From Liolophura sinensis (Eukaryota > Mollusca > Polyplacophora > Chitonida > Chitonidae): DNA of 64,000 bases. Positions 1 to 64,000 of this stretch are shown piece by piece (position 1 is the stretch's first letter; every line of letters begins with the position of its first letter). The notes beneath the pieces are model-generated. The model saw nothing but the letters and a program-made list of their open reading frames with translations. It searched no databases and had not been told where the DNA came from. The DNA lies in contig NC_088300.1 in NCBI RefSeq assembly GCF_032854445.1, forward strand, positions 58,812,984 through 58,876,983, in the 5' to 3' direction. Made by a program: the position numbers and the translations under genes.

Positions 1-3000
1 ACCTGTGTTGCAGTGCCGCACCCTAACTTGTACATCCTGATCAACCCTGTTAGGCTGACTGTCCACTACAACACAGTGCTCTGGGCCAATTACTTTTTCC
101 TCAACCTGGCCAAAGGGATTGTAAGTCTAAGCTGTCTACCTGATATTTGAAATGTGCTGGTATATAAAGAATGTGTGTCACTCTAATAACAAGCAAGACC
201 CTTACTGGTTGAGATGTTGATCAACATGTCCAGCAGGCTATAATGGCCGAGACCGGACATCATAAGATTTGTATGGCATTTAAGATGCAGTGTTTTCTCT
301 GAGCCTTGTTTCCTCCATATAGAAACCCTGAAAAGGGAGTGGTGAATGTTGATTTATAATTTCAAAGGTTTAACTGCCTGGTAATCAGTTAAGCATTGCT
401 AAAGGTGCATGAATTCTGTTTGACTCTTTGCAGGTTTAAATTCACTACTTATTACTGTTCTATTCTTATACCCTCTATTATCTTGTGACTACTTTAATAA
501 TCTTGCTTGTTCAACCAGATTTTTTGTGTTGATATATTAGCAGGATAATCCAGAATAACAAAATAACAGAATTGTGCTATTATGTTGTAATTGTTTATAT
601 TTCAGAAGCTAGATGAAGAGGACTCAGGCGGACCTCAAACCCATGTGGACATTAAAATGGAGGCTGTCATGCCGCGGGTAAACAGCCTTCTATTTTTTGT
701 GTAAGATTTAACAACAGAGAACCTGCCTATTTACCGCCCAAAATAATGTGAGCCAAAACTGTGCAGTCCAGTGTTCATTTCTGCGTTAGCTATGGTGTTT
801 TCTGGGTAAACTGGTAAAGTGTTACTTATTCATTACAAGAGAAAAGTGGTCAATTCATTGCTTGGTAAAGGTACCATGTTGCTGTATTTCTGAAACCTTT
901 TCGTATTTTTGCGAGGTGTTTATTCAAGCAAATTTGGAGTGAATTATTATGTGCAGACTGATTATACGTTATGTAAAGCCCTGAAGTTGACTGATCCAGC
1001 CAGTGTATTTTTGTTTCCAAAATCAAACATGCATAAATTGCACTGAAAGTTGCTCTTTCATGTGCAAAAAGGTTGAGGAATTAGGGTAAATGTATATGTA
1101 AATCTATTACCAGTGTCACAAGAGCTCAAAGTTAGTTGTCTATGTAGTTATTTAAGGGCATTACCAGACTAGTCTGCGGTATCTGAGGTCTGGAAAGAAT
1201 TTACTTAGTGGTACACATATTTATGATTGACTTACACACTCTCTGTTTGAAACTGAGCAATGCTGCGAAATACAATTTATGTTTTTGTAGAAACGTTGTA
1301 ATAGTACTGGTTTGATGTGTGTTCATACATGTAAGGTTGCATCATGTTGCTGTGGCCACCAGTGGGTTCTTGGTAACAGTAAGCTAGCACCAACACTCTT
1401 CTAACTGTTTGCGCAGTCTAATGTTACTTGAAGATTCATTGTCGCCACCAGTATGGCATGCATATCTGTACAGGTATGTCACATGTGGGAAACCTTGTCG
1501 TTAAACTGCCAAAGGTCAGTTGTTTTTTCTGAACATTCCATTTCCCTCTACTTATTAAAATGACCATTTTTGGGTAAGTGCAGATTTCTTGAGTATGTTA
1601 TGAAATGAATCAAACGAATAGATTGTGTAAAAGTAAACAGTTGGCATTTTCTGTTTCAGCTGATCATCCCTTCAGAGAATCGCGTGGCAGGACAGCTGGA
1701 TAGGCCCGACGCCCTTCAGGCACAAGTATCCCGATTGACTGCCACAAACTGCCGTGTGGAAAACAAGAGTTTGAGGACAGACTTAAAAAAATTGCTCAAT
1801 ACCTTTAATACTGCTTCTCTGTTTTCTCAGACGGATTTTCCCAACGATCAAAACAGCTTTGTGACCATTCCGCAGCAATTCTGTGATCATGCAGCCAATC
1901 AGGACAACCCATACATTGATCGCGCCACCAAGACACTGTTACGCGGGGAGTCTGTTGACGCAAACACACGCCTCCATGTTGGGACTCTTCTCCAGGACAA
2001 GGCTTTTGACATCTGGTCAGTTGCCATGGACCAGATATGGGTGGAGTTCACGGGGGTTCCCAGTTCCCCAGAGCGCCCCGTCCCCTGCCTCGAGTCCATC
2101 CCCCTGACTCTGTGGTTCTGTAATCCCCTGGCTATGAGGCAGGCTGGTGAGGGCCAGTCAGAAGCTAGGACACAAACCTCAGAGAGGCGTTCAGATGACC
2201 TTCACACCAGAAGGTCACCACTGCATAGGAAAGAGCATGGTGAGCTGGACAGGACTCGAGCTAGTAAAAAACTGCTCCGTCAACATTACACAGTGACGGA
2301 AGACGCGGATTATGTGATTGATCCCATGTACCATAGTCCTAACAGTTTGTTAGATTTTGACGATGACCCTGACATTAGGAACCATATCAGCTGTGGAAAT
2401 ATAGGGGATGCAACCAAAGACAGCAGTGGCCGGTCTCTCCAGTTAGCAGATTTCTATGTGCTGCTCAACTTTGGCGGGAAAGTACGTGCACAAATCAACC
2501 ATTATCAGTACTTGTTCATGATGCGCCTGCTGGACTCGTATGCTGACTTCCAGAAGCGCCTCATCAGCGACATGGAGCATCTAATGCCTGGCTCATCCTC
2601 CTCTACCACTAAGTTGTGTGCCTCCCTAGTGCTCCAGGAGGCAGAGTTGGCCATGGTGTGCCCAGCAGTGCCCCAGCCCTCTGTCACTCCCTCCAGTCTA
2701 ACATACAGCAGCCCACTCACCATGGTGGCTGGCCTGGCCCGTCTCGGGGAAAGCATGGATTCACGTCGGGGAACCGTGGAGCTTCAGGTGCCTAGCAGGG
2801 ATCTCACAGATGGTAAGGCAGTTTAAAAACACCACTGTTGTGTAGAACATTGCATTTGTCTGGCAGAAGTCATTACAGAATTATGGTGGCAAGAATTTCC
2901 ACTGAACATGATGCAGTCACTGTATGTTCATCAATGATGCCATTTCTGAATATTCCCGACCATAAAAATATGCATAAAATATAGGTATTGTTAAGAAATG

Positions 3001-6000: not shown

Positions 6001-8066
6001 TGGTGAGGAGCAGTTGGTTTACTCTGGGTTCATCAGTTTCCTCTGGATACCGCTATTTCAGTTTCCTCTGGGTACCAGTACGTCAGTTTACTCTGTGTAC
6101 TTCAGTTTTCTCTGGATGCCGGTACTTCAGTTTCCTCTGGGTACCAGAACGTCAGTTTACTCTGGGTACTTCAGCTTCCTCTGGATCCCGGTACTCGAGT
6201 TTCCTTTGGATACCGGTACTTCAGTTTCCTCTGGGTACCAGAACGTCAGTTTACTCTGGGTACTTCAGCTTCCTCTGGATCCCAGTACTTGAGTTTCCTT
6301 TGGATACCGGTACTTCAGTTTCCTCTGGGTATTTCAGTTTTCTCTAGGTACCAGTACTTCAGTTTACTCTGGGTACTGGTAGCTCAGTTTACTCTTGGTA
6401 CTTCAGTTTCTTCTGGGTACCAGTACTTCAGTTTCCTCTGGATACAGATACTTCAGTTTCCTCTGGATACGGATACTTCAGTTTCCTTTGGATACCGGTA
6501 CTTCAGTTTCCTCTGGGTACCAGTATTTCAGTTTCCTCTGGGTATTTCAGTTTCTTCTGGGTACCGGTACTTCAGTTTCCTCTGAGTAATTCAGTTTACT
6601 CTGGGTGCTGTTACTTCAGTTTCTTCTGGGTATTGGTACTTCAGTTTACTCTGGGTATTTCAGTTTCCTCTGGGTACCACTACTTCAGTTTCCTCTGGGT
6701 ATTTCAGTTTTTTCTGGGTACTTCAGTTTACTCTGGGTACCGGTATTTCATTTTACTCTGGGTATTTCAGTTTCCTCTGGGTACCTGTGCTTCAGTTTAC
6801 TCTGGGCATCAGTACTTTAGTTTACTCTGTGTATTGGTATTTCAGTTTCCTCTGGGTATTTGAGTTTTTTCAGGGTGATGGTATTTCAGTTTCCTTTGGG
6901 TACGGGTATTTCAGTTTACTCTGAGTATTTCGGTTGTGTAAACTTGGAACCTACTTCCAACATTCTGGTTTCCTGATGATCAAACGGAAAACGAACTGTG
7001 CTGTTCACTACCTTCTGGAAAAAAGAGTTCAACCGAAAATGTACGAACTGCACTTCGGCGGTTTCCAATGGCAATTCTCCTCCTAACACAGAAGACTTCA
7101 GGACTAGTTTTTGGGCAAAATCGAGTCGCTCACATCGGATGTTGGCGCTGACTTTATTTATAATTTGTCAACTTGAGGTACATATTAGAAATTTTTTATG
7201 GCATGCGCTTGCAAGGAAATGCATTCTCTTTTCAATGGTATTTGATTGATATTTAAATTTTCTTCTCCTATAAACACCAGTCAAATATGTGTGTACTCTC
7301 AGATTCTCTCCCTGTTATCTTCCTTTGAATCCACCACCTGCTATTACAGTAACACTGAATTAAAGTGTTATCTGCGGATGGTTGTGGGTTTACCCCAGGC
7401 TCTACCCAGTTTCCTCCCACCATAATGCTTGCCAACGTCATAGGTGAAATATTTTTCAGCACAGCGTAAAACACCAATCAATTAATTAAAATACTGTTCA
7501 TCATATTTGTTGCAGGTGAGCCGTTGCCTTGGATAACAGCGTCTAGTCACAGCTTGGCAGTGGCAGGGGACAAGCTGACGGCAGCACTGAACCAGATTCC
7601 AGACGTCTGCCTGAATGAGCGATTGTCTGGCAGATCAATCTCACCTATGGACTTTCCTTTGTCAGACAATAACTTTAAACTGCAAGTAGAGAGATTGACA
7701 CAGCAGAACCTGCAGCTTAATGAGCAGCTTAGCGCAGCACTGACGCAGCTAACGACACTGGAGGAGCTGAAGACAGAGAACCAAACCCTACGCACACAAA
7801 TGAAGAAAATAGCCAACCTGAATCCTAACAATGGCTGGCTGGATATGGAGAAGGGAGGTAGCTCTGTCAGCCAGTCACTTCAAGAGGAAAACAACAATCT
7901 TATTGAGAGAATATCCTACTTGGAGGATGAACTGAAAAACTCTTTGAAGGAGAAAGATTCTCTTGTTGCAACTTTACGACTGTTGCAGGAGGAATTATTG
8001 AGATCAGAGTCAAAGAGAAGTACGGGGAATGCGACATCTGCTCGACAACGGTCTCCACGACGATGA
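1..8066 (+). CDS. BLTP3: Bridge-like lipid transfer protein 3 (UHRF1BP1/UHRF1BP1L-like), 3' portion
   Basis: Eight exons join in frame: 1 (or 13)-120, 606-677, 1660-2812, 3189-3751, 4070-4226, 4781-5010, 5508-5616 and 7516-8066, giving 984 residues to the stop. The 5' part lies outside the window. The first residues (VPHPNLYILINPVRL then VLWANYFFLNLAKG) match the repeating beta-rich groove of the UHRF1BP1/SHIP164 family, followed by a MEAVMPRLIIPSENR segment. Exon 4 (3189-3751) is low complexity, with Ser/Asp/Glu-rich stretches that look disordered. The last exon encodes a coiled coil (about 7666-7990; VERLTQQNLQLNEQL and later LEDELKNSLKEKD). Known for the family: rod-like proteins that move phospholipids between membranes and act around endosomes and lysosomes. 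Family assignment is by recalled motifs and domain order; I cannot say whether it is closer to BLTP3A or BLTP3B. Position 13 is an alternative first exon border, because 'ttgcag' precedes it. Confidence 0.85.
893..1090 (+). repeat. Dispersed repeat copy, unclassified
   Basis: This stretch of the second intron shown is similar to the reverse complement of 58133-58340. Shared blocks include AGGTGTTTATTCAA, CTGAAAGTTGCTCTTTCAT and GTTGAGGA.TTAGGGTAA in the same order and spacing. No tRNA-like head or coding potential is visible, so the class is unknown. Confidence 0.65.
1345..1540 (+). repeat. Degenerate SINE-like fragment (family 2)
   Basis: Contains the core CCACCAGTATGGCATGCATATCTG, GTCACATGTGGGAAA and CTGCCAAAGGTCAG seen also near 24853, 25655 and 52095. 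It is degraded and lacks a clear tail. Confidence 0.4.
6000..6935 (+). repeat. Minisatellite array in a BLTP3 intron
   Basis: About 0.9 kb of tandem units built on TTCAGTTTCCTCTGGGTACC-type sequence. Unit lengths alternate between about 19 bp (with GGTATTTCAG) and about 25-27 bp (with GGTACCAGTACTTCAG). Open frames across it (repeating FLWVPVLQF-like peptides) are a by-product of the repeat, not genes. Confidence 0.9.
7371..7490 (+). mobile_element. SINE family 1, 3' half
   Basis: Starts with TCTGCGGATGGTTGTGGG, continues TTTCCTCCCACCATAATGC and ends GCGTAAAACACCAATCAA. It matches the 3' half of the full copy at 48696-48961. It lies only 25 bp upstream of the last BLTP3 exon. Confidence 0.75.
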
Positions 8067-12121: not shown

Positions 12122-15100
12122 TCACGAGGGACTACCAGAACGACTTCGACTTCGACTGCGACTCCGGGATGCAGACCGTGCTGGTGACGCATCATCATGA
12201 TTATCCTCATCTCCATTCAGTTTCTCGGAGCCGTCATGTGATCTCTCTGATGGAGGATTGCTGGCAGACCTACTTCTGGATCGACTTGGTGACTTAGATT
12301 TGGACTTTGATCGGCTTCGCGATTTGGACACACTTCTTGACTTTTCTCTGCTGCGGGAGGCCTTCTTCTTACTTTCCTCAGGGCTACGAGATCTGCGTCG
12401 GTCACGGCTGCGTGATCGATCCCGACGCGTTCTGCTTCGACTTCTAGTGCGTGTTCTGCGCTTACGCTCCCTTGATCGGGATCGGGACCTGGACCTGCTT
12501 AAGGAGATATGAAGGTCATGTCTATTTTCCACCAAATTTCCCTTCAAAATTCCCTTCTTCTTAGGTGACAAGATTTCATTCAACATACCTGAATTTCAAC
12601 TCCTTACTTATAAATAGCTAACCACTGAAAATTTCATAGCTAATAACTAATTTCTTAATCGTAAAAGTCAAAAATATCTTGATTTGTTAACTTTTTATCA
12701 CAAAATGAACATGAAACTTAGCAAGCTGTTTCAAATCTGTTTCAAACTGAAACAAACACAATGGGTCACTTCTTGAAACCAATGTAATTTTAGACCAATT
12801 CTCTTCATAAGTTGGTTTGCATGTGGTAATATCACTCCTACAGTTAGTACATGTACCTTCTCCTCTTCCTTGAGTAAGGGGATGGTGATCTGTACCGCCC
12901 AGTGCGGCTTGGTCTCCTGTAACCATAGTGGCTGTCATTAGGACAGTCCCTTGCCCAGTGACCCGCTCGATGACAGCGGTAGCACTCATCATAAGTTTGC
13001 AACTGAAACAAAGGACAGGTTCTGCATATCAGCCTCTGTGAAAGACGAAATATTTAACCAAGTAGGGTTTCACTGAATTATAACAGCACCCATTTCAGAC
13101 AACAATATCGAACATAAGAATTTGTGTGAGTGATGGCTTGTGATTGGATTAGAAACAAAAAAAAGACACAGTGAGAGACCCTACATTGTGTTCACTTGGA
13201 ACAGTAGGCCAAGAATTTGAGCCCAGCAGTAGAGATAACAAAGAAATTCTCTAAAAATTGCCTGTTATAAAATTTATCAGAATTATGAAAGTATATTCAT
13301 TTTTTCACTATTTCAATAGTGTTTAGTATCAAACTGAACAAGTTTCACTTTGATGACAAAAATCAGGTTTACGGATGGAGGAAACCACAGAGCTTTGACA
13401 ATACCAGAGTTTTTCAACATGTACCTGACAAAGATAATAGAGTTGCAGAATAAACTACATGAGGTATATACATGAGATACATATGTCTGAGGTCGATCAG
13501 CTGTGGCGAGATCTCACAGAATAAAAAGTTGTTTTAAGAATATAAAACTCACCAGAGGTCTCCTTGGATTCCCTTTAGCCCACTCCACAATAATAGCGGA
13601 GCCACATATTTCTCTGCCATTTTCATACTTTACTGCATCCTACAAATACATTATGACGTTATGAGAACTCTGAACATTTAGGTATATTACATATTTCATG
13701 GCCCAGTAATTTCCAGCTTTCAGACCAAAATAAAATTAAACAAATGTAACAAACATCCTCAGCTATAAGACAAATAGAAATAGATTAAACACTGATACTC
13801 TTTCAACTGCAAACCCATCTACATACTTTCTCACCTTTAAAATACAAAGGGTATAACACTGAATGATCTAAAATGTTCATAGCAAAAGAATTTCATGAAT
13901 GTGATTACCAACATATGTTTCAACTTAATGAAAGTGACAAGCAATCTGTGAAGATGTTTTCCTTCATGGTTCAAAACTTACGAAGTATGAAGAACTGAAG
14001 AAGTTCAGTGGTAACTATCTTGAAGTAAAACTGTTCACAAGATTTAGAAATTACTGGACCAATCAGCAGTTCTGATGTTAACAGAATAAGCCAGGATGAA
14101 CTGTAAATAGCATATTTACTGTGGTTACTTTGGACACTTTATACTTACATTAAACAGACTAATTCAAGGAGTCAAAAGCAAGTAGAAACAGACAACAGCA
14201 AGAGTTTTAAACGATTAATAACGTACTCTAAGGCATGAGAGCAAAGGCTGGCCGGTAACATGGAGCGAGTGGCCATGGCATGGAAGTGCGCTGTGGTTGG
14301 CCCATGGTGGTCACATGATCGGGATCAGGTGACGGACTGGCCAGGTAACGGTAATGGAACCGGGGAGGCTATGGCATGGTATTGTGGTCAGTGGTCATTG
14401 CTCATAAACAATGGTTCATGCTTTGGCTCGGGATGGAGTCAGGGTGACTTTGCCGTGGCAAGGGCTGCTATTTGTTTTATAAATTTAGGAACTTTAGTAT
14501 CAACATATCAGAAAATGTTGGCTTTACACAGATAAAAATACTACCATTCCAAATCATGAAATTTCAATGCCAAACAAAATTGGAAAGTGAAATTTATTAA
14601 AATACAGTACGTTATCTTTATCAACTGATCACAAAGAAATTCATGCTATGAATGTTAAACAAAGTCTATGTATACATTTAGATTACCAATATCATATGCA
14701 AACCAAAAAGGAAGATTTTAGCCATTAACCAGTTGATACCTCACCATGCTAAAAGAGATGAATAAACATACATATGTATATGCACATCAAATGTTCAGTA
14801 GCCTATAAACCGTGATGCTAAGCATTTTCCGCTCAAAATAGTAAAATGGCAGCTAACACTTCAGAATCATACCTCTGCATCGCGGCGATCTTCATAATCC
14901 ACAAAAGCATAGGCTATACGAAGAGAAAAAGGAAGGTGAAATATTTGATGGCTACATCATTTAAACTGCATAATTTCATGACACAATAACATTAGCTTTC
15001 TAATTACATGTGTATTACATACTATTATTTTTTTAGCATGATGGGTTGTTGTAAAAATCATCGTCAAAAGAAAAGGATTTTTAATTGCAACAACAAGTAT

Positions 15101-16438
15101 ACGAGAACAAATTCTGTGTTTGTCCGAAAATATTTATTTCAAATGAATTATATGCCAGGTTGCTGAATTTCAACACAAAGCAGATTGCTAGATTTAACCA
15201 AAAAATATCATGGGGACTGTCACAATGTCACTGTCACAAGACCAGGATGTGCTATTACTCCTTATCACCACATTTTCTTCCCAAGTTCTTAAGTGTATTC
15301 ATGCTGGAATGACATACACAGATAAACAATGGAAACTAAGCGCTCGTCTCAGACTGTAAGTTGAACCCCATGAATAGGACATAACCAAATATTCAACTTG
15401 CAGTCAGTGTACTCAGGCTAGGTTGAAATGTGCTCTTCGGTTACAGCAGTAGTTTATGTGTTACGGTCACTTATGTGTAGCCAACCCTTATCAAGTCTGG
15501 TCTTTGTATTCATTCTGTAAGACGGGTCAGAAGTTGGGGCTCACATGACCACCCTTTCATGCTGAAAACAAAATGGACGCCCAATGTTAAAGCACTGGGG
15601 AAAAGGTCACTTTTTGCCACTTCACTAGCCACCAGTAAGGCCTAGTTATACAAAATAGCATCAAGAAAGCCATGCAGAAATACTTAAGACTATCTGGAAA
15701 GCTGAAAATTATACAAATCCAACGTATGCAAGATCGCTGCCAGCCATTCAAAAATAGGCATTTTCCTATGCAATAACATTGGGAGGACCGTTTTCTTCAC
15801 TCAAGCCGTTTGTTACTTAGGCGATCACGTGGTCTCCAACTTTCGATCCATCTTACAGAATCCAGCCTATCATTCCGCTCTTTTGGCTGGCCTCTGATGC
15901 TTAATTGTGTTCCTGCTCACCTTTCAACACTGATAATTACCCTTACCATACCATCATGAGATGCTCATGTGGCTTTTTTTTTTTAAATTAAAATCCCATA
16001 CAGTACAACAACATTTCCCGAAGGTCTCCTTGACTCACCCATTTCAGCACCTGCAACAAACAGAAAGATACCTCAGGTATATATTCCATTTTCTTTTCTT
16101 CATTCCAATTTAACATGCATAGACTTCAAGAAACACAGAAATTAAAGGTGCTTTCGGAAACAAAAATCTTTCCAAAAACAGCATATCTGGTGGAGTAAAT
16201 AGCGATTCAACGAGATCGCTGACTAACTCGGTCAAGCAAGAAAGGTTAGCCGCCATTTTTTAAGGACGTTACTATCTAATTATGTTTATTGATGAAACAT
16301 GAAACAAGACCCACCATACTTAATTTCGCACCGCGCGAGATGACCATATCGCTCAAATATGTCCTCTAAGTCTCTGGTTCTAGTTGATTTACTCAGACGG
16401 CCGACAAAAAGCTGGCCCTCTGCGCCTCTTCTCGACAT
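12122..16438 (-). CDS. SR splicing factor: RRM, CCHC zinc knuckle, RS tail (SRSF7-like architecture)
   Basis: Six exons on the minus strand: 16438-16315, microexon 16050-16039, 14913-14873, 13639-13553, 13002-12857 and 12494-12122. They give 260 residues (256 if the microexon is skipped). One N-terminal RRM (about residues 9-84): RNP2 is LFVGRL and RNP1 is AYAFVDYED. Then a CX2CX4HX4C knuckle (CYRCHRAGHWARDC), a short basic linker, and a tail of RS/SR dipeptides ending SRSRSGSPS. Known for the family: nuclear proteins that bind exonic enhancers, are phosphorylated on RS dipeptides and recruit spliceosome parts; a single RRM with a knuckle is the SRSF7 (9G8) layout. The start ATG is the first in the exon. 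The acidic insert KLNGDEDNHDD inside the RS tail is unusual. Orthology to a specific vertebrate SRSF is not settled. Confidence 0.9.
14225..14480 (-). other. GC-richer block inside an SR gene intron, function unknown
   Basis: In the AT-rich intron between exons 14873-14913 and 13553-13639 lies about 250 bp of clearly higher GC, with repeated CCATGG/GGCCA motifs. The minus strand shows a possible acceptor (AACAAATAG then CAGCCCTTGCC) near 14468 and early stops in all frames. A poison cassette exon is possible but no clear donor is visible. Confidence 0.3.
16039..16050 (-). other. 12-nt in-frame microexon in the RRM
   Basis: On the minus strand a pyrimidine-rich tract ending TTGTTGCAG is followed by GTGCTGAAATGG and then the strong donor GTGAGT. 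The upstream exon ends in phase 1 (TAT G) and the downstream exon begins CC TAT. Skipping therefore gives Y-A-Y and inclusion gives Y-G-A-E-M-A-Y. Both products stay in frame, differing by four residues just before RNP1. Confidence 0.75.
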
Positions 16439-16776
16439 CTTCGTAGCGTGCGGGATCTAAATTTCAGATTGCCCGGATGAAGACAGCCCTTGTTATCTAT
16501 CGTAGTTTCGTATTAATATTTGGGCCAAATAATTTTAGATTTTCGGATTTTCAGAATTTTGTTTAAGTATATAATATTTAATATTTTGGCGCAAAACAAG
16601 TTAATAATTGCAACACATAATTTTGATTAACTGAATGTTGACTGCGGCTTTGCTATATTAACTTTTGGGGCATGCGCTGTTGGAGGGTCCACGTTACTGA
16701 TTCACCTGTCACTGCATTCTAATTTTCTTGAATTCTCTTGAATTTGATATTGCATATACGTGCCCAGCATAATAAC
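16439..16776. promoter_or_regulatory. Shared head-to-head promoter region of the SR factor and ARL1
   Basis: The two start codons are 338 bp apart and point away from each other. No TATA box is placed convincingly for either gene. The compact divergent layout of two broadly expressed genes suggests a bidirectional promoter; this is inferred from geometry. Confidence 0.5.
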
Positions 16777-61600: not shown

Positions 61601-64000
61601 CCAGAGGAAAGCACTGCACCTCACCGAGGGCCTGGTGACATATCACAAGTATTGCATTTGCCACTCACGTTCTTTGTTTATGGGAAGATAACTTGATGAT
61701 GTAGCCCATTACTGGGTGATGTAGCCCATTACTGGGTGATATAGCCCATCGCTCAGTGATATAGCCCATTACTAGGTGATGTAGCCCATTGCTTGATGAT
61801 GTAGCCCATTGCTTGATGATGTAGCCCATTGCTGGGAGATGTAGCCCATTGCTGGGAGATGTAGCCCATTACTGGATGTAGCCCATTGCTCGGTGATGTA
61901 GCCCATTGCTCGGTGATGTAGCCCATTGCTGGGAGATGTAGCCCATTGCTCAATGTTGTAGCCCATTGCTCGATGATGTAGCCCATTACTGGGCGATGCA
62001 GCCCATTGCTTGGTGATATAGCCCATTGCCTGGTGATGTAGCCCATTACTGTGTGATGTTGGTGATTATTCGGTTAGGTAGCAAATTAATTGCTGGGAGA
62101 TGTAGCCCATTACTGGATGTAGCCCATTGCTCGGTGATGTAGCACATTACTCGCTGATGTAGCCCATTGCTGGGAGATGTAGCCCATTGCTCGATGATGT
62201 AGCCCATTGCTCGATGATGTAGCCCATGACTGGGTGATGCAGCCCATTGCTTGGTGATATAGCCCATAGCTTGGTGATGTAACCCATTGCCTGGTGATGT
62301 AGCCCATTACTGGATGATGTAGCCCATTGCTGGGTGATATAGCCCATCGCTCGGTGATGTAGCCCATTACTAGGTGATATAGTCCATTGCTTGATGATGT
62401 AGCCCATTGCTTGATGATGTAGCCCATTGCTGGGAGATGTAGCCCATTGCTGGAAGATGTAGCCCATTACTGGATGTAGCCCACTGCTCGGTGATGTAGC
62501 ACATTACTCGGTGATGTAGCCCATTGCTGGGAGATGTAGCCCATTGCTCAATGTTGTAGCCTATTGCTCGATGATGTAGCCCATTACTGGGCGATGCAGC
62601 CCATTGCTTGGTGATATAGCCCATTGCCTGGTGATGTAGCCCATTACTGTGTGATGTTGCCGATTATTCGGTTAGGTAGCAAATTGCTGGAAGATGTAGC
62701 CCATTGAATTACCATTGAGTTACTCTCACAAAGACAACATCTATAGAGCACTATGGCCATTTTGGGTGATTGGTGGTGGAGCTGTCTGTAGTGTCACACT
62801 TCGGATAGACATCTGCGTTAGTATTGTTTCCTTTTGTGGTCACTTTATTCCTCATAAGCCACTTTATTCACATGAACGAAATAAAAAATAAAGACATATG
62901 TTACATGTGTATATATACACACATATTACAGTGTATTAATAACATGTTAACCTTGGTATTCTCTAAAGTGATAATATAAATATTATAGAACCTATCTTTT
63001 GAATTCGTACATGTTTTTGCTCTTGTAATGTGCAGTGATGTTGATATTTTGTTCTGCAGATTGACAACGCTGTGATGTTTTGTGACATGGGAGGTATGGC
63101 ACCTCTAGTTAGACTTCTCAATCACACTCACAAGGACCTGAGGGCAGAGGCAGCTTTTGTGTTAGGCTCTGCTACACAGAGGTGAGTCTGGAATTGTACC
63201 TCTCAGTTAGTTGAGGGATTACCACAGAAAAGCCCTTGTGATTAGTGGCCCTCACTTTATTAGTGAGGGCCCTTCCTAGCCAAAGGGTTAAATATGGTAA
63301 CCCTGTTCTGTGTATTGCATGTATTGCAAAGTAGTCACGACATGTGTCTAATGTAACATCCATTGTAAAATATAGTGAAGAGATACATCAGACAGCACCA
63401 TGGTACTTAGCATTGGTGTAGTGTTGTAGCATTTTTATGTTTTATTTATTTATTTATTTGATTGGTGTTTTACGGCGTACTCAAGAATATTTTACTTATA
63501 CGACGGCAACCAGCATTATGGTGGGTGGAAACCGGGCAGAGCCCGGTGGAAACCCATGACTATCCACAGGTTGCTGGCAGACCTTCCCATGTACAGCCAG
63601 ACTAAGTTAGTATTTAACTTAGCCTCAAGACAATTTCCCAGCATGCAACATGAATGCATCTGCATTGCCTCTCTATTGTCCTTAGAGTCATGTACAGTTT
63701 ACAAATTCACTGAATTATAACATAGTTTTCTTGCTTTGTAACTGTACAAGTAGAAAAGCAGTCCTCATCTGTTGGTGTGCTCTGTTGACAGTAATCCGAA
63801 GGTACAAGTTCAGGCTGTGGAGACTGGTTCCTTGCCCCAGCTCATCAGGCTGCTGTCAACTGATGAAGACATGACTGTCAGAAAACGTGTTCTTTTCTCC
63901 ATATCGTCTCTAATACGACAGTTCCCATTTGCGCAGCAGAAGTTCCTGCAGCTCGGAGGGCTAGCTGCTTTGTCACAACTTTTCTCTGAGAAAGGCACGG
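58659..64000 (+). CDS. SIL1: SIL1, ER nucleotide-exchange factor for BiP (5' portion)
   Basis: Seven exons in frame: 58624-58806 (start ATG 58659), 59267-59359, 59978-60094, 60719-60816, 61358-61549, 63060-63181 and 63792 to the window end. They give about 326 residues, open at 64000. Residues 1-30 look like a signal peptide (MKIFLTVTLVMFSVLFYKIC). An acidic stretch leads into the family hallmark FYPTKDWQKVKKGQAVPSGL and HVRLNLETGEKEAKL. Then a helical region (61358-61549) precedes armadillo-like repeats: AFVLGSATQSNPKVQVQAVE and LIRQFPFAQQKFLQLGG. Known: SIL1 grips the ATPase lobe of HSPA5/BiP in the ER lumen and speeds ADP release. The second ATG (residue 5) starts the hydrophobic run directly and is an alternative start. 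The intron before 63060 contains a 1-kb minisatellite. The C-terminal part is outside the window. Confidence 0.93.
60150..60322 (+). mobile_element. SINE family 1 fragment in a SIL1 intron
   Basis: TTGACCCAGGAACCTCTCACC, CTAACTCGTGCTGGCTTCCC, GTGGGAAGGTCCGGCAACAA and GGATGGTCGTGGGTTTCC. The 3' tail is absent. Confidence 0.72.
61690..62705 (+). repeat. 20-bp minisatellite with higher-order duplication in a SIL1 intron
   Basis: About 48 copies of GATGTAGCCCATTGCTCGGT with variants at the last six positions. A stretch starting at 61738 recurs about 598 bp later at 62336 with the same order of variants. A non-repeat insert (TTATTCGGTTAGGTAGCAAA) ends both halves. The minus-strand open frames (MGYITKQWA-type repeats) are repeat artefacts, since 20 bp units give a 20-residue period in any open frame. 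Confidence 0.93.
63441..63600 (-). mobile_element. SINE family 1, 5'-truncated
   Basis: On the minus strand: TGGGAAGGTCTGCCAGCAAC, GGTTTCCACCCACCATAATG and the tail GAGTACGCCGTAAAACACCA with AAATAAATAAATA. It lies in the SIL1 intron before the last exon shown. Confidence 0.85.

Follow-up and report, generated by a model that had tools for sequence, protein, structure and literature searches.

A 12-nt candidate microexon sharing its acceptor with candidate premature-stop exons in an SR-protein gene of Liolophura sinensis

How, if at all, is a 12-nt exon-like unit in the first intron of an SR-protein gene used? The unit lies in a stretch of Liolophura sinensis DNA of 64,000 nucleotides, the whole of which was analysed (hereafter, the window), and a sequence-only reading had taken it for a plain microexon whose alternative use would give one gene two RNA-binding versions of its protein. 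The gene occupies 16438-12122 of the minus strand in five exons, to which the proposed 12-nt exon would be added:

16315..16438, minus strand: first coding exon, 124 nt, ending in phase 1 (TAT G/GTGGGT), with donor ATG/GTGGGT at 8.3 bits
16051..16073, minus strand: pyrimidine tract and AG-free zone before acceptor 16050; the last upstream AG is about 21 nt away, within CTGAG
16039..16050, minus strand: 12-nt microexon candidate GTGCTGAAATGG, which would add G-A-E-M; acceptor 12.7 bits, donor TGG/GTGAGT 9.1 bits
14873..14913, minus strand: 41-nt exon in which the RNP1 strand begins (AYAFVDYEDRRDAE)
13553..13639, minus strand: 87-nt exon with the remainder of the RRM
12857..13002, minus strand: 146-nt exon carrying the CCHC zinc knuckle
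12122..12494, minus strand: last coding exon, with the RS domain and the stop codon

The predicted protein has one N-terminal RRM, one CCHC knuckle and an RS tail, and thus carries both the N-terminal RRM and the C-terminal RS-rich tail by which the SR family is defined. Matches to Pfam RRM_1 (48.9 bits for the form that skips the 12 nt and 51.9 bits for the form that includes them; cut-off 20.7) and zf-CCHC (a single stretch, above the Pfam cut-off), together with a tail of 150 residues that is 59% R+S and contains 49 RS/SR dipeptides, bear out the SR identity first read from the sequence. A search of the protein against NCBIfam returned general RRM families only, every one below its cut-off. 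Neither two protein scans nor a profile scan of viral and genome contig collections, all non-eukaryotic, gave an orthologue; the profile scan, built on a degenerate alignment, matched two RRMs of 27–28% identity in viral contigs.

The gene looks like those of RS2Z proteins, with 46% identity to Arabidopsis RS2Z33 over 106 residues that include the knuckle (a pairwise comparison with a provisional copy of the RS2Z33 sequence). We do not assign it to RS2Z, since that class is defined by two knuckles and a single zf-CCHC stretch was found. According to the extract of Richardson et al. 2011 (PMC3173450) on which we draw, the presence of RS2Z in animals was then left open, an amphioxus SR protein with one zinc finger, Br125053, was placed beside RS2Z with weak support, and more sequences were wanted to decide whether RS2Z is ancient and was lost in bony vertebrates. 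Because sequences of this kind are called for in that extract, an invertebrate SR gene that joins an SRSF4/5/6- or RS2Z-like RRM to one knuckle provides a new test case for RS2Z ancestry, and the gene itself may outweigh the exon in importance.

The surroundings of the gene are as follows. Its start (16438, minus strand) stands head to head with the predicted start of an ARL1-like gene (16777, plus strand, ATGG/GTAAGG), the two being 338 nt apart (16439-16776), an arrangement that suggests a common two-way promoter; of the ARL1-like coding sequence, just 4 bases would lie in the first coding exon. Elsewhere in the window, 1609-2823 (plus strand) matches Pfam BLTP3A/B (bridge-like lipid transfer protein) at 134.5 bits, and long minisatellites occupy 6017-6935 (period 25/69, about 39 copies of the 25-nt unit) and 61697-62706 (period 20, about 51 copies). 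A HEAT-repeat coding stretch at 63754-63999 continues past the window end; judging by eye, we take it to resemble SIL1. The Rfam search gave no family at gathering score, and no tRNA was found. Comparison of 16500-12000 with the window by blastn (E up to 1e-3) revealed no second copy, and hence no sign that the 12-nt exon is a repeat with another copy here.

On the minus strand the unit reads TATCTTTCTGTTTGTTGCAG, then GTGCTGAAATGG (16050-16039), then GTGAGT, so that it falls within the 3–30 nt of a microexon and is bordered by canonical AG and GT. Intron 1 is 1.4 kb long, of which 264 nt lie upstream of the unit, and the CTGAG ahead of acceptor 16050 is a possible branch point. Translation of both splice forms agrees with the sequence-only reading in its coordinates, its frame, the peptide GAEM and the placement of the 12 nt just before RNP1, between exons that join in frame with or without them. 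The included form has 260 aa (...CEIKY-GAEM-AYAFVDYED...) and the skipped form 256 aa (...CEIKY-AYAFVDYED...), and in both the reading frame stays open to one common stop, ending at 12122.

Splice sites were scored with approximate generic matrices. In the generic matrix, acceptor 16050 reaches 12.7 bits against 2.9 to 11.2 for the gene's four homology-supported acceptors, and donor 16038 reaches 9.1 bits against 4.7 to 11.0 for its four homology-supported donors; the neighbouring ARL1-like gene has four acceptors at 3.2 to 11.9 bits and three donors at 3.5 to 11.6 bits. The two sites sum to 21.8 bits, a value that no other pair of 3–30 nt equals on either strand of the 64 kb (generic matrix). 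When five matrices were compared, the fifth built solely on sites of the window (7 donors, 8 acceptors), the pair ranked first of 12,649 AG-GT pairs (3–30 nt) in four and 17th in the local-only one. Among 2000 first-order randomisations of intron 1, 3 contained an equally good pair and 1 contained one that preserved the frame; random 64-kb strands contained 0.067 such pairs on average (120 trials). The 12-nt candidate exon exceeds chance expectation. Given these ranks and counts, the unit is very probably under selection, although this does not imply splicing as proposed.

It might nonetheless be absent from mature mRNA, as a decoy, a stepping stone of recursive splicing or a coincidence, the intron being 1.4 kb long. 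Its start, AG/GT, could serve as a recursive site, its rank in the local-only matrix is lower, and random 64-kb strands sometimes contain a better pair (23.7 bits for the best of the 120 strands, exceeding the real 21.8). The frame-preserving count in random introns speaks against such a coincidence. Recursive splicing of the unit makes a weak candidate as well: after a first recursive step the regenerated donor, ATG/GTGCTG, has 2.3 bits to set against the 9.1 of GTGAGT, so that inclusion would prevail. We consider it improbable that the mature mRNA lacks the unit.

The picture of a plain exon proved incomplete in another respect. Acceptor 16050 precedes three donors that reach 9.1 bits or more, at 16038 (9.1), 15946 (9.2) and 15920 (11.6); the two stronger ones had been overlooked, and either would make an exon with a premature stop:

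15921..16050, minus strand: candidate 130-nt poison exon from acceptor 16050 to donor AAG/GTGAGC (11.6 bits), with an in-frame TAA that ends 62 nt before the exon end
15947..16050, minus strand: candidate 104-nt exon from acceptor 16050 to donor ATG/GTAAGG (9.2 bits), with the identical TAA, followed by 36 nt of exon

The 130- and 104-nt exons (lengths 1 and 2 mod 3) shift the frame and translate to GAEMGESRRPSGNVVVLYGILI-stop, and three further coding introns lie beyond the exon junction that follows the TAA. Both forms therefore show the layout of a poison exon, namely an exon-like pair of sites, an in-frame premature stop and junctions downstream. Among 121,331 pairs of 31–300 nt, the 130-nt pair ranks 1, 4, 1, 2 and 109 in the five matrices and the 104-nt pair 5, 9, 6, 11 and 163; rank 109 comes from the local-only matrix, as does rank 17 of the 12-nt pair. 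A cluster of three donors scoring 9.1 bits or better inside 118 nt is seen a single time on the minus strand and nowhere on the plus strand. None of 120 random strands has one; random strands are poorer in donors of this strength (mean 19.3) than the real strands (34 and 28). With donors at their average density, 0.04–0.07 such triples would be expected on a 64-kb strand; at the local density, the 4.1 kb of the gene region would be expected to hold 0.14.

Strong decoy donors are, however, common in this gene: its 4.1 kb contain 7 donors of at least 9.1 bits where 1.8 are expected, and only one of the seven, 13552, belongs to an exon known by homology. Other strong donors without explanation in the gene stand at 14744, 13834 and 12588. 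The body of the 130-nt form contains an 11-A run and has an intron-like look, and no unusual RNA fold was detected in 15880-16100 (z 0.81). Our main reading is that acceptor 16050 would start a regulated exon with competing 5′ splice sites, of which the near one would code for GAEM and the far ones would be unproductive; the count of strong donors in the gene region lowered its probability to about 0.36.

Intron 2 of the SR gene contains two further arrangements of sites. As an alternative donor, 14744 (9.7 bits) would lengthen the 41-nt exon to 169 nt by adding 14872-14745, with an immediate in-frame stop. At 14748-14745 lies TTTTAG/CATG/GTGAGG, a 4-nt exon-like pair that would shift the frame and is the second-best pair of 3–30 nt (18.5 bits, generic matrix).

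The protein itself accommodates the unit in either state. Against SRSF6 (PDB 9r53), the skipped form aligns without a gap at the loop and scores 67.5 bits, the included form 60.5; against Arabidopsis RS2Z33 (the provisional copy), the skipped form is gapless within the RRM and scores 91.7 bits, the included form 86.3. SRSF1, SRSF3, SRSF7, PfSR1 and a plant-type SR34 chain are fitted better by the included form. PDB sequences over threshold number 89 for the skipped form and 141 for the included form. Among the 44 that appear in both top-60 lists, 37 favour inclusion and 7 favour skipping (SRSF6, RALY, RBM14, two hnRNP C, RBM4B and hnRNP Q), in a sample whose members are non-independent, whose multi-RRM chains sum scores and from which 16 sequences per list, absent from the other, fall out. 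As both loops occur in solved RRMs, both lengths appear plausible and the fit of the protein cannot decide between them.

The sequence-only reading had described the loop as SRSF4-type on skipping and as lengthened on inclusion. Skipping does give the loop length of SRSF6 with no gap, but the label has to be restricted to the RRM, since a zinc knuckle is present here and is not known from SRSF4. Inclusion does add four residues, yet the resulting loop is not oddly over-long, as the RRM_1 score rises by 3 bits and most of the shared PDB matches favour it.

That rise would also suit constitutive use, in which the 12-nt exon enters all or nearly all mRNAs, the beta2-beta3 loop is four residues longer throughout and the far donors are decoys. 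The unit has the gene's best acceptor and a good donor. Of 7949 micro-exons of at most 51 nt in human brain, 6469 are constitutive, with splice sites stronger than those of alternative ones (PMC4317164, in extract); MPC1 has a constitutive exon of 4 nt in human cells (PMC9929638, in extract). The numbers of constitutive micro-exons nevertheless drop steeply as size falls (PMC4317164, in extract). It is the skipped form whose RRM aligns gaplessly to SRSF6, the closest solved RRM, and to the plant RS2Z protein, and the extra donors would have to be coincidence. On balance, constitutive inclusion seems doubtful.

A plain cassette microexon would instead yield both the skipped and the included protein, and these would differ in RNA binding. 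Both frames are open, both loop lengths are seen in solved RRMs, the shorter one is gapless against SRSF6, and TGCATG (RBFOX-type) motifs lie upstream (16119-16114) and downstream (15676-15671) of the unit. This motif is at chance level in the window, where it is not enriched (56 occurrences, a count that 20 of 100 shuffles reached, against 48.0 expected), and frequent skipping is disfavoured by the strong sites. Very weak 3′ sites are typical of fly eMIC exons, as are long AG exclusion zones (PMC8797185, in extract); the 12-nt unit, with its strong 3′ site and near AG, has neither. We therefore find a plain cassette unlikely. The sequence-only interpretation finds partial support; the strong sites lean against its alternative use, sitting better with published micro-exons of the constitutive class than with alternative ones (PMC4317164, in extract), and the evidence leans towards efficient use of acceptor 16050 over neural cassette use.

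Returning to competing donors behind acceptor 16050, splicing would begin with removal of the 264-nt upstream intron, joining exon 1 to the acceptor, after which U1 would pick either the near donor 16038 or the far donors 15946/15920. Choice of the near donor would add Gly-Ala-Glu-Met to the loop before RNP1. Choice of a far donor would interrupt the RRM with a stop codon and direct the mRNA to nonsense-mediated decay, so that far-donor use would act as the gene's poison exon for autoregulation, and skipping of the whole unit would give the short-loop protein. What the sequence shows is the arrangement of sites, the frames and the stop; the use of each site, the splicing order, decay, autoregulation and any change in RNA binding are inferred. 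Unproductive splicing would be expected here, since it affects all human SR genes and arose repeatedly at non-homologous positions (PMC4379411, in extract); in mammals, the first intron of SRSF4 holds poison exons (same extract). If the competing donors are real, the twist would be that the near one keeps the message coding.

In its boldest form, which we think quite unlikely, this arrangement would make one acceptor in an animal RS2Z-like SR gene a three-way switch: skipping for a short loop, the near donor for a long loop with possibly altered RNA choice, and the far donors for no protein. Poison exons and microexons are already known kinds; such a switch, if true, would let a single exon start tune both the amount of product and its RNA-binding loop. 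We found no case of a microexon within an SR-protein RRM in the open-licence literature.

Last, we compared the gene and its candidate exons with known systems. Like SRSF7 (9G8), the protein combines an RRM, one CCHC knuckle and an RS domain, but its RRM matches SRSF7 at 47.0 bits against 67.5 for SRSF6, and the loop residues of SRSF7 differ. With plant RS2Z and amphioxus Br125053 it shares an SRSF4/5/6-like RRM with a CCHC knuckle and an RS tail behind it; unlike plant RS2Z it has one knuckle instead of two, in a kinship judged pairwise. The 12-nt unit resembles mammalian constitutive micro-exons (PMC4317164; MPC1, PMC9929638; both in extract) in being very short, with a strong acceptor and donor and a short upstream intron (264 nt), and differs from them in sitting in an RRM, with extra donors after it and inclusion that is predicted only. 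It recalls eMIC (SRRM4-type) neural microexons in a length divisible by three and, weakly by itself, in a UGC near the 3′ site (TTGCAG, 16056-16051, where TGC abuts AG), whereas its strong 3′ site (12.7 bits) with the last AG about 21 nt upstream is unlike those of fly eMIC microexons (PMC8797185, in extract). The candidate poison exons follow the cassettes of SRSF4, SRSF5 and SRSF6 in layout, with an intron-internal exon, an in-frame stop and several coding introns downstream, and depart from them in an acceptor that could also serve a 12-nt in-frame coding exon.
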